Positions 14,561-51,444 of a stretch of DNA of 64,000 nucleotides are shown piece by piece. Position numbers and translations under genes: made by a program. Under the pieces are notes generated by a model. The model did no database searches. It was not told where the DNA came from and saw only the letters and a list, made by a program, of their open reading frames with translations. The stretch comes from Tateyamaria pelophila (lineage in GTDB: Bacteria > Pseudomonadota > Alphaproteobacteria > Rhodobacterales > Rhodobacteraceae): contig NZ_JAIMIA010000005.1 in assembly GCF_019966495.1 (NCBI RefSeq), positions 1-64,000 on the forward strand. The letters are read 5' to 3'. Each line of letters opens with the position of its first letter. The stretch's first letter is position 1.

Positions 14561-14600
14561 TTTGTTACCTCAAATTTTGGGCAATGCGTTGGAAGCGGCG

Positions 14601-14652
14601 CCAAGATTTTTCGTACGAAAAATCTTGGCTGAGGAAATTCGAAGAATTTCCT
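14601..14652 (-). other. Paired hairpins in the rpoB-rpoC gap
   Basis: On the minus strand, AGGAAATTC, TTC, GAATTTCCT (14652-14632) overlaps the rpoB stop codon. After a short linker a perfect 28-base palindrome follows at 14628-14601 (arms CCAAGATTTTTCGT). Neither has a T tract suited to termination of an essential operon. They are more likely processing or stability structures, or a mobile intergenic repeat. Confidence 0.75.
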
Positions 14653-18788: not shown

Positions 18789-19079
18789 ACTATAAGTCAC
18801 CTTTCAGCGTTTCTCTGGGTGCGCGCGCCGTCGGGCCACGGTGCGCTGCCCCTTCGAGAGGATGGGTCCAGATCTATTCACAGCCACCGTCCCACCGATG
18901 GCCTCCCGATCTGTTGAACACATCTTGGAAAAGGCTTTGGATCAAAACCCTTGCCAAGACAGGTCAGGCCGGGCACGCGATATGCGCACCCAGCCCAATG
19001 ATTTCAATGGGGGCACGGAATTTGATGCAAATTCCGGCCGTTTTCCGATCATCGGAAAACGCCCCCGTCCCAAAGGGAC
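18789..19079. other. rplL-rpoB intergenic leader
   Basis: This 291-base gap carries the double-hairpin element at its rplL end and about 220 bases of otherwise unannotated leader before rpoB. No protein-like frame was found. In E. coli the corresponding gap holds an attenuator and an RNase III cleavage site; a similar role here is inference from position. Confidence 0.5.
19016..19061 (-). repeat. Double-hairpin element, copy C (after rplL)
   Basis: On the minus strand, starting 18 bases after the rplL stop: stem CGTTTTCCG / CGGAAAACG with a 5-base loop, linker GC, then stem CGGAATTTG / CAAATTCCG with a 3-base loop. Both stems are perfect 9-bp pairs. It shares architecture and core bases with copies at 38526 and 50758. 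Transcription into rpoB must pass it, so it is not a strong terminator. Confidence 0.85.
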
Positions 19080-37495: not shown

Positions 37496-37649
37496 GATAC
37501 CCACTCTCAAATTTTTACTCACCCACCTCTCGTATGACAGCAGAGCCTTGCGTTTTTGCTAACAGATCATGACATTTTCTGGGCCCGCCTGCCCTTGCCC
37601 CTGTCCCCGTGCACACCCTATGGTGCACCGGCGGATTAAGGGGATCGTG

Positions 37650-38525
37650 ATGGACATCAAGACCATTGGAATTGTGGGTGCCGGACAGATGGGCAACGGT
37701 ATTGCGCACGTCATGGCAGTCGCTGGATATGACGTTATGCTCACGGATATCTCCGGCGATGCGTTGCAGGCGGCTGTGGCGCTCATCGATCGCAATCTGG
37801 AGCGTCAGGTCAGCCGGGAAAAGATCAGCGCCGAGGACAAGGCCTTTGCGATGAAGCGGATTGCAACGACGCAAACCCTGACGGACTTGGGGCCAAGCGA
37901 TCTCATCATTGAAGCAGCCACAGAACGCGAAACCGTCAAGCAGGCGATATTCGAAGACCTGTTGCCGCACCTGAAGCCTCATACCATCCTGACATCGAAC
38001 ACGTCATCCATTTCGATCACGCGGCTTGCCAGCCGCACGGACCGGCCGGAAAAGTTCATGGGCTTCCATTTCATGAACCCGGTACCAGTGATGCAATTGG
38101 TTGAACTGATCCGCGGGATCGCAACGGATGTCGAGACCTATGACGCGTGCAAGACCGTGGTTGATCGGCTGGGGAAGACCGCCGCGAGCGCCGAGGACTT
38201 TCCCGCCTTTATCGTCAATCGCATTCTGATGCCGATGATCAACGAGGCCGTCTATACCCTCTACGAGGGCGTGGGGTCCGTACAATCGATCGACTCGTCG
38301 CTGAAACTGGGGGCCAACCATCCGATGGGTCCGCTAGAGTTGGCAGACTTCATTGGGCTGGATACATGCCTCGCCATTATGAACGTTTTGCATGATGGGC
38401 TGGCGGACACCAAGTATCGTCCCTGTCCGCTGCTGACCAAATATGTTGAAGCTGGTTGGCTTGGGCGCAAATCAGAGCGCGGCTTTTACGACTACCGTGG
38501 AGATGTACCTGTCCCGACGCGGTAG
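37650..38525 (+). CDS. 3-hydroxybutyryl-CoA dehydrogenase
   Basis: From ATG 37650 (AAGGGG upstream) the 291-residue protein has the NAD fold GIVGAGQMGNGIAHV, SNTSSISITRLAS, the catalytic GFHFMNPVPVMQLVE and the C-terminal helical domain ending KSERGFYDYRG. It interconverts acetoacetyl-CoA and 3-hydroxybutyryl-CoA (Hbd/PaaH family). Such an enzyme feeds PHB cycling or the ethylmalonyl-CoA pathway. Directly after the stop stands a double-hairpin element. Confidence 0.93.
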   Translation: MDIKTIGIVGAGQMGNGIAHVMAVAGYDVMLTDISGDALQAAVALIDRNLERQVSREKISAEDKAFAMKRIATTQTLTDLGPSDLIIEAATERETVKQAIFEDLLPHLKPHTILTSNTSSISITRLASRTDRPEKFMGFHFMNPVPVMQLVELIRGIATDVETYDACKTVVDRLGKTAASAEDFPAFIVNRILMPMINEAVYTLYEGVGSVQSIDSSLKLGANHPMGPLELADFIGLDTCLAIMNVLHDGLADTKYRPCPLLTKYVEAGWLGRKSERGFYDYRGDVPVPTR

Positions 38526-38571
38526 CGCGTTTTCCGATACGGAAAACGGCCGGAAAATGCGTCATTTTCCG
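38526..38571 (+). repeat. Double-hairpin element, copy A (after 3-hydroxybutyryl-CoA dehydrogenase)
   Basis: Stem CGTTTTCCG / CGGAAAACG with loop ATA, linker GC, then stem CGGAAAATG / CATTTTCCG with loop CGT. It starts 2 bases after the stop codon. It lies between convergent genes, so it may serve both 3' ends. Confidence 0.85.
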
Positions 38572-38590: not shown

Positions 38591-39469
38591 TCAGTCTTTC
38601 AAGTCGAGAGTGTGCGTACGTAACCAAGCCATAAAGCCGCGCGGGTCGTCTTTGAACCCATCCACAAAGGAGCGATCCAATGGGTGACCCACAATTGGGG
38701 CTTGCGGTTTGTTCAGGGAATGAACGATTTCGTGCAACAACAGGCCCTGGCGGAGCATAGGCGATAGTTTGTTTGCGATCTGATAGGCACGGCTGTTTTG
38801 ACCCGGAAAATACATCGGTACAACGGTAGCTCCGGAACGACGGATCAATTGCGCCGTAAACACATTCCACTCACCTTCGACGGCATCTCCCCACCATGTG
38901 TCAGACACTGCAACAACACCTGATGGAAACAGCGCCACGACGCCGCCCGCCTTCAAATGCGACATCGCCTTGGCACGCATTTCGACACCTTTGCGCTGTG
39001 CATCCTTGTCATGAGGAAACGGCACCGGGATCATGTAACTTCCGGCGACCTCGTCGATGGCCGTAAGCAACGAGCGTGTCAAAATGCGGTAGTCGGGCCG
39101 CACACGTCCGATCAGGTCCGCAAAAATCATACCATCCACCATCCCATGGGGATGATTGGCAACGATAATGACCGGGCCTTCCTTCGGGATACGGTCTAAT
39201 TGCGACTGCGGGGTCGTCAGTTCGATCCCCATCACATCAAGACATGCGCGCCAGAACGCTTGCCCCTTCGGTGGGTTCTGGCGTTCAAATTTCCTAATCA
39301 GGCGCAGTATCGTCAATTTCCCGGTGAAGGCTTCCATGACGCGGATAAAGGCCGCTTTCCAGGGGTCTTCGAACGTGGACGCGTAAGACAGGCTACTGCG
39401 ATCGTATTTCGCAAAGCTCACGGTCTCTGTTTCCTCTATTTCGGAAACGTTATGTGTACTATCCACCAA
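38591..39469 (-). CDS. Lysophospholipid acyltransferase family protein
   Basis: The 292-residue protein has the acyltransferase motif block I VANHPHGMVDG, block III FPSGVVAVSD and a later PMYFPGQNSRAY, as in hemolysin/OlsB-like acyltransferases that use acyl-ACP. It likely acylates a lyso-lipid or an ornithine-type lipid at the inner membrane. The frame opens at TTG 39469 followed by GTG, with GAAGG upstream; the exact start is uncertain. It stands between the double hairpin and the HPr gene. Confidence 0.8.
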   Translation of the reverse strand: MVDSTHNVSEIEETETVSFAKYDRSSLSYASTFEDPWKAAFIRVMEAFTGKLTILRLIRKFERQNPPKGQAFWRACLDVMGIELTTPQSQLDRIPKEGPVIIVANHPHGMVDGMIFADLIGRVRPDYRILTRSLLTAIDEVAGSYMIPVPFPHDKDAQRKGVEMRAKAMSHLKAGGVVALFPSGVVAVSDTWWGDAVEGEWNVFTAQLIRRSGATVVPMYFPGQNSRAYQIANKLSPMLRQGLLLHEIVHSLNKPQAPIVGHPLDRSFVDGFKDDPRGFMAWLRTHTLDLKD

Positions 39470-50757: not shown

Positions 50758-50801
50758 CGATTTCCGACACGGAAATCGGCCGGAAACCGTGCCGGTTTCC
50801 G
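50758..50801 (+). repeat. Double-hairpin element, copy B (after mcd)
   Basis: Stem CGATTTCCG / CGGAAATCG with loop ACA, linker GC, then stem CGGAAACCG / CGGTTTCCG with loop TGC, starting 5 bases after the mcd stop. Compared with copy A, differences in the stems are compensated on the other arm. Confidence 0.88.
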
Positions 50802-50844: not shown

Positions 50845-51444
50845 ATGCTTACATTTGCCGCCGCCGTATTCTTTCTGATTATCACCCCCGGACCGGGCGT
50901 TTTATCTGCAGCAGGTGTCGGGGCCGCTTACGGTATGCGGGCAGGCCTGCGCTACGTCCTTGGCCTTTTCATTGGCAACAATCTTGTCATTCTTGCCGTC
51001 GTCTCAGGCCTCGCTGCTTTGGTCCTAACGACATCATGGGTCCGCACAGCTCTCTTCGTACTTTCAACAGCCTACTTACTCTATCTCGCCCTTCGCATTG
51101 CCTTTGCGGGATCAAAACTCGCGTTTGCACCCGCTACATCTCAGCCAGGCGTAGTGGCAGGCATCCTGCTACAGCCCATCAACCCAAAGGCTTATGCCGT
51201 CAATGCGGCCCTGTTTTCGGGGTTCACCATCCTTCCTGACGCCTTGGTCGCCGAGGCGAGCCTGAAGTTGCTGATCGTAAACGTGATCTGGGTTCCAATC
51301 CATGTGCTCTGGGTTTGGTTCGGTGCCAAGCTCAAGGAAATGAACTTGGCACCAACACGTCAAAGGATGGTGAACATGGCGATGGCGGCTTCAATGCTCC
51401 TGGTCGTTGCACTCGCCCTCTTCTCGGCGCTCAATGACACATAG
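50845..51444 (+). CDS. LysE-family exporter
   Basis: The 199-residue protein has six hydrophobic segments and the family N-terminus FFLIITPGPGVLSA with the GLRYVLGLFIGN repeat. LysE/RhtB proteins export amino acids or homoserine lactones. It follows mcd after the double-hairpin element and precedes the TetR gene. The substrate is not deducible. Confidence 0.88.
   Translation: MLTFAAAVFFLIITPGPGVLSAAGVGAAYGMRAGLRYVLGLFIGNNLVILAVVSGLAALVLTTSWVRTALFVLSTAYLLYLALRIAFAGSKLAFAPATSQPGVVAGILLQPINPKAYAVNAALFSGFTILPDALVAEASLKLLIVNVIWVPIHVLWVWFGAKLKEMNLAPTRQRMVNMAMAASMLLVVALALFSALNDT

Follow-up and report, generated by a model that had tools for sequence, protein, structure and literature searches.

Two perfect hairpins stand in tandem directly behind an acyl-CoA dehydrogenase-like gene of Tateyamaria pelophila (positions 50758 to 50801 of the window, that is, of the whole 64,000-nucleotide stretch of DNA analysed). 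This leads to the question as to what such a pair of palindromes is, and on which molecule its pairing is maintained. The same architecture occurs there in three copies, given here with their neighbours; scores are those of covariance model R1, described below.

18821..18912, minus strand: Rhodo-rpoB leader RNA (RF03074) near copy C, which served as an internal control
19016..19061, minus strand: copy C, past the rplL-like ORF and upstream of the Rhodo-rpoB leader; 57.7 bits
19080..19454, minus strand: ORF before copy C, which we take to be rplL-like; present in all 20 genus genomes
37569..38525, plus strand: ORF before copy A, presumably 3-hydroxyacyl-CoA dehydrogenase-like; present in all 20 genus genomes
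38528..38571, plus strand: copy A, past the stop of ORF 37569..38525 and convergent with an ORF ending at 38591; 69.8 bits
49049..50752, plus strand: acyl-CoA dehydrogenase family ORF before copy B, its family matches all falling below the NCBIfam cut-off
50758..50801, plus strand: copy B, between the acyl-CoA dehydrogenase-like gene and the co-directional ORF 50845-51444; 71.4 bits

Copy B reads CGATTTCCG-ACA-CGGAAATCG, a GC linker, and CGGAAACCG-TGC-CGGTTTCCG. In each of the three copies 18 of 18 pairs are Watson-Crick, the first stem of copy C being readable as 10 bp with a 3-base loop or as 9 bp with a 5-base loop. A scan for stems of at least 9 bp, loops of 3-5 nt and a tandem spacing of at most 4 nt returned perfect tandem hairpins at three places in the window (four listings, since copy C is reported in two forms); 200 first-order Markov shuffles gave no such place. 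The three fully paired double hairpins described in the initial annotation are indeed present, and they begin, as it had stated, shortly past a stop codon in sense orientation, at distances of 2 (A), 5 (B) and 18 nt (C). A further tandem double hairpin, of unrelated sequence, lies at 14600-14652 on the minus strand, directly past the stop of an rpoB-like gene; it is also found in genomes G011 and G012 and, in changed form, in G019, and in seven other species the spacer after the rpoB-like gene holds a GTAAGGCGG-type palindrome instead.

The three copies are members of a dispersed family. In the window's own genome (G000), the pattern CGGAAANCGGCCGGAA occurs 11 times without mismatch and 56 times with up to two mismatches, the latter versus 29 for the reversed control. 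When 17 copies were aligned, 97.4% of the cells in the two stems were paired; 25 cells carried changes on both sides, and one-sided changes to a standard pair were absent. Covariance searches with R1 and then with a broader model, R2 (80 copies), both trained on well-paired copies, yielded 212 distinct copies, 42 of them in G000 and 47 in a congener, Tateyamaria sp. (G014); matches below 37 bits and overlapping opposite-strand matches were excluded, as were repeat sightings of one copy where loci overlap. In alignment A3, where each stem was set at 10 bp, 93.8% of the 1578 cells were paired, and both-side changes numbered 182 versus 37.4 in shuffles. Within the genus, 15 of 20 genomes were hit at E 0.01, and the number of matches per genome ranged from 0 to 63. 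Across the family, at least 44 of 394 genomes matched at E 1e-5, a lower bound because 15 candidates were scored per genome. A class-wide draw of 385 gave four matches at E 1e-6, namely the own genome, two from the same family and one from outside, the last being weak (38.1 bits). Hence, the covariance search of this genome and other Rhodobacteraceae that had been proposed as a check did recover further copies.

An exact pattern scan of named genomes returned 59 stretches, including some from Tateyamaria, Ruegeria pomeroyi, Leisingera, Seohaeicola, Sulfitobacter, Aliishimia and Marimonas; the sole phage match was a 22-nt half match. Two records titled Enemella evansiae, an actinobacterium (L321 and L344), also carry the paired palindromes, and are probably mislabelled or from a contaminated assembly. 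At positions 1501-1819 of locus L231 (G139:C1:148915-152233), five double-hairpin units follow one another at a spacing of about 67 nt, two of them scoring below 37 bits.

No name for the element was recovered. Against Rfam 15, the whole window gave only the Rhodo-rpoB leader and a tRNA at gathering score, neither over the element, and all matches around copy B lay far below the cut-off, in agreement with the earlier statement that no named RNA or repeat has this form. No title or abstract opening among the search results names such an element in Rhodobacteraceae, most subscription journals lying outside the coverage. The study of R. pomeroyi small RNAs (Rivers 2016, PMC4809877) lacks the words hairpin, terminator, palindrom, convergent and stem-loop and uses "repeat" twice, in other senses, while a stem-loop survey (PMC2267715) lacks Rhodobacter, Silicibacter and Caulobacter. 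Rhodobacter, Ruegeria and Roseobacter are likewise absent from the RepRanger main text (PMC12306157), and the accessible portion of PMC5107571 holds nothing bearing on the element. The paired palindromes constitute a real family in many marine Rhodobacteraceae, apparently without a name or prior description.

Comparison with the congener reveals how the copies are passed on. For 33 of the 42 copies of G000, a G014 copy lies beside the same flank (27 are backed by both flanks), with identical orientation in every listed pair. Base comparison took in 27 of these 33 orthologous copies. Here, 21 stem positions were changed on both sides and remained Watson-Crick, and five one-sided changes were left once the outermost pair was excluded; among loop letters 58 of 156 differed, among stem pairs 42 of 486. 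The two genes preceding copies A and B differ by 20.8% at the DNA level. Since the copies share flanks and carry compensated changes in G014, they are inherited rather than freshly inserted. The compensatory stem changes noticed earlier among the three window copies thereby reappear between orthologs. At copy C (19039-19061), the first-hairpin loop is the reverse complement of the G014 loop (ATGAT and ATCAT), a hint of hairpin inversion.

The chemistry of the pairs was examined in 204 distinct cores (one failed parsing). Their 3672 pairs comprise 3593 Watson-Crick, 18 G-U, 24 A-C and 37 other combinations. The Rhodo-rpoB leader, in 11 of 20 genus genomes, shows 63 G-U and one A-C among 340 pairs, its structure having been predicted on the control alignment itself. 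In Bacillus cereus terminators (PMC5381666), 4-5% of pairs are G-U, and of the A-U/G-C switches with an inferable intermediate 89.5% passed through G-U. On the element strand, G-U and A-C numbered 3 and 5 in the 38 copies after one-way sense genes, and 2 and 4 in the 19 copies with one-way genes on the other strand; on the transcript strand, the 57 strictly one-way copies hold 7 of each. Looser one-sided classes gave G-U/A-C counts of 6/8 (sense) and 3/9 (other side) on the element strand and of 15 versus 11 on the transcript strand, a slight lean towards RNA. This symmetry argument comprises 42 G-U/A-C cells, which are not independent events.

Because pairing survives at the stem positions that vary, a strand must be folding back on itself. 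With no clear preference for G-U, selection is unlikely to act on the transcript strand alone. Self-folding and strand symmetry together point to one of three things: the DNA itself folds, both transcripts are used, or a mutational process corrects palindromes. What is conserved looks to be the DNA, or both strands, and not an RNA from one strand, and the initial annotation's reading as RNA structure in particular is not borne out, one-way genes included. Its dictum that structure rather than sequence is conserved holds in that pairing is kept while bases change, but not for the cores of the first stem (TTTC/GAAA) and the second (GGAA/TTCC), which are strongly kept. The strand-symmetric covariation shows that base compensation within a hairpin does not, taken alone, prove an RNA structure.

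In the predicted fold, two hairpins, mostly perfect and each closed by a 3-nt loop, are joined by 2-3 nt. This fold has a mean energy of -21.4 kcal/mol and lies within 2 kcal of the minimum free energy (MFE) in 192 of 204 copies. The alternative folds across the two hairpins that had been suggested are not a conserved feature: the cross-hairpin fold comes close in copy B (-22.2 versus -24.4 kcal/mol for the double hairpin), is poor in copy A (-11.8 versus -20.2) and was not found within 15 kcal in copy C. In 94 of 204 copies the 5' arms could cross-pair at 8 or more of 9 positions; for the 3' arms the count is 48. Loop-loop pairing between the hairpins was considered and rejected, loops being fully complementary in 29 of 196 copies versus 39.4 expected with shuffled partners.

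The position relative to stop codons was determined for 174 first units, with array L231 split into three and opposite-strand neighbours in four loci counted apart; a gene end was the stop of an open frame of at least 100 codons, without gene calling. At 142 of these 174 places (whole clusters), a stop lies within 30 nt, reading into the element, as the proposed link to gene ends would have it. The sense orientation seen in the window, however, does not extend to the family: 55 places have such a stop on the sense side only, 37 on the other side only, 50 on both and 32 on neither. Within 20 nt, a stop is found upstream in sense at 93 places and on the other side, reading in, at 57, versus 5.1% of random positions in the same loci; within 10 nt, the sense count is 76. 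Genome G139 deviates, with a sense stop within 20 nt in one of 14 copies and an other-side stop in three. Among 44 copies from the named genomes (43 of the 59 loci), 13 were sense only, five other side, 13 both and 13 neither. Annotated plasmid copies lie between convergent genes in R. pomeroyi DSS-3 (2 and 8 nt from the gene ends) and in Leisingera sp. S132 (6 and 31 nt). Two-unit clusters account for 38 of the 174 places, their units being 53-104 nt apart from start to start.

From these sequence comparisons, we tentatively place first a 3'-boundary element, REP/BIME-like and strand-symmetric, that would work as a pair of DNA hairpins, with a putative trans factor or topological role. Its functional form would be DNA folded within one strand, as hairpin or cruciform, since the stem positions stay complementary, which binding to a linear duplex would not require, and since the strand asymmetry of RNA is missing. 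Some trans-acting factor would read the two conserved cores, or else a topological process where transcription units end; gyrase at BIME-2 of E. coli has reportedly been proposed as such a process. Counting against folded DNA, all three window copies lie in sense, copies B and C are (nearly) preserved in a single other genus genome, and the hairpins at the copy C site in G009, G017, G006 and G018 contain G-T cells. Many copies are possibly transcribed from both sides, so that G-U would be disfavoured by that alone, which weakens the DNA reading. The next-ranked explanation, possible if less probable, is an RNA element used in both directions, and for that reason intolerant of G-U, whose double hairpin directly past the stop would block 3'-5' exonucleases or stall terminating ribosomes. 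E. coli REPs reportedly act in this way within 15 nt of a stop, and RepRanger (PMC12306157) restates the stop-codon effect of REPs. The 76 sense stops within 10 nt, the 50 places with stops on both sides, the stability of the fold and its closeness to the MFE, and the lean of the looser classes are all consistent with such a bidirectional RNA. G-U is, however, no commoner than A-C in the strictly one-way copies, and a strong block at copy C, between rplL and rpoB, would cut rpoB expression.

Intrastrand template switching during replication could also keep the arms complementary, selection then being absent or confined to the core letters. This correction of palindromes predicts the missing G-U preference and the rarity of intermediates that were counted, and the inverted copy C loop between G000 and G014 also speaks for it, but stems change far less than loops and the copies of some species look decayed rather than corrected; we regard it as unlikely. 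Less probable again is a mobile REP/REPIN family that a RAYT transposase would spread. As with REPs, these are multicopy extragenic palindromes, with 42 and 47 copies in two genomes, 142 of 174 at gene ends, two units in 38 of 174 clusters and a patchy copy number. Searches for RAYT-type Y1 transposases, made with PF01797 only, passed the cut-off in copy-rich G000 (2) and G007 (1) and in G019 and were weak in G003, but found none in copy-rich G014, G001, G005 and G008; the shared flanks and orientation of 33 of 42 copies in G014 (27 with both flanks) likewise weaken RAYT mobility. A regular foot of the REP type, as listed in PMC2817692, is missing as well: GTAG occurs within 8 nt before stem 1 at nine of 174 places (background 0.8), seven of them formed with a TAG stop, and GTGG at nine (background 3.7), with one and five, respectively, outside stem 2 against the same backgrounds. 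Ordinary intrinsic terminators would share the 3' location and the stable hairpins, yet this explanation is also weakened and is the least probable of all: a T-run is absent on both strands (TTTT within 10 nt in one of 174 on each, background 1.6%; T fraction 0.190 and 0.161 beside the element on the two strands versus 0.192 background), as is G-U-led switching of the kind reported for B. cereus terminators (PMC5381666).

The fate of individual sites varies within the genus. At the copy A site, the element is kept in G014, G001, G003, G005 and G008 (G003 showing a single A-C cell, G001 three G-T cells), altered in G015 (16 of 18 pairs) and G010 (15 of 18), and, to the eye, decayed in its letters in G004 (14 of 18) and G002 (12 of 18); the remaining genus genomes exceed shuffles by at most one or two pairs. 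Of the 19 other genus genomes, G014 alone keeps copies B and C intact or nearly so, with 17 of 18 pairs at copy B and an intact copy C. G010 holds 16 of 18 pairs at the copy B site, and hairpins persist at the copy C site in G006 and G018 (15 pairs each), G017 (14) and G009 (13), with two or three G-T cells each. At the copy B site of G001, G008 and G005 (loci L248, L253 and L255), the same gene is followed by a GTAGGGCGGGG...CCCCGCC hairpin that resembles a classical REP, the downstream sequence differing from that of G000. Copy-rich species stand in separate places on the genus tree (copy numbers being R2 counts for G000 and G014 and R1 counts elsewhere, some opposite-strand matches included), and so genome-wide loss of copies probably happened more than once. 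Under the folded-DNA reading, copies may decay in lineages that are without the factor. The more specific proposal, that the hairpin-DNA pair is read by a putative Rhodobacteraceae-specific factor marking transcription-unit ends, whose loss would entail genome-wide decay of the copies, is rather doubtful. If true, comparing copy-rich with copy-poor Tateyamaria could name the factor, the uneven presence within one genus constituting a natural experiment for finding what uses the element. Furthermore, the group across which this 3'-boundary element occurs is ecologically major and counts the model Ruegeria pomeroyi among its members.

The "double-hairpin elements" of mitochondria, a term that occurs in papers on mitochondrial repeats, also consist of two tandem hairpins as a dispersed unit; the likeness is one of description only, these being organelle elements without known relation. 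With intrinsic (bidirectional) terminators, the element shares a hairpin directly past the stop, common to convergent genes, but it has two hairpins, no U-tract and no clear G-U preference. Unlike the REP/BIME sequences of Enterobacteria and Pseudomonas, it has no regular GTAG-type foot, no Y1 transposase in four copy-rich genomes, and two mostly perfect, closely linked hairpins with 3-nt loops at orthologous sites that show compensatory change. It resembles them in being a short palindrome of many copies, extragenic, often at gene 3' ends and often paired.
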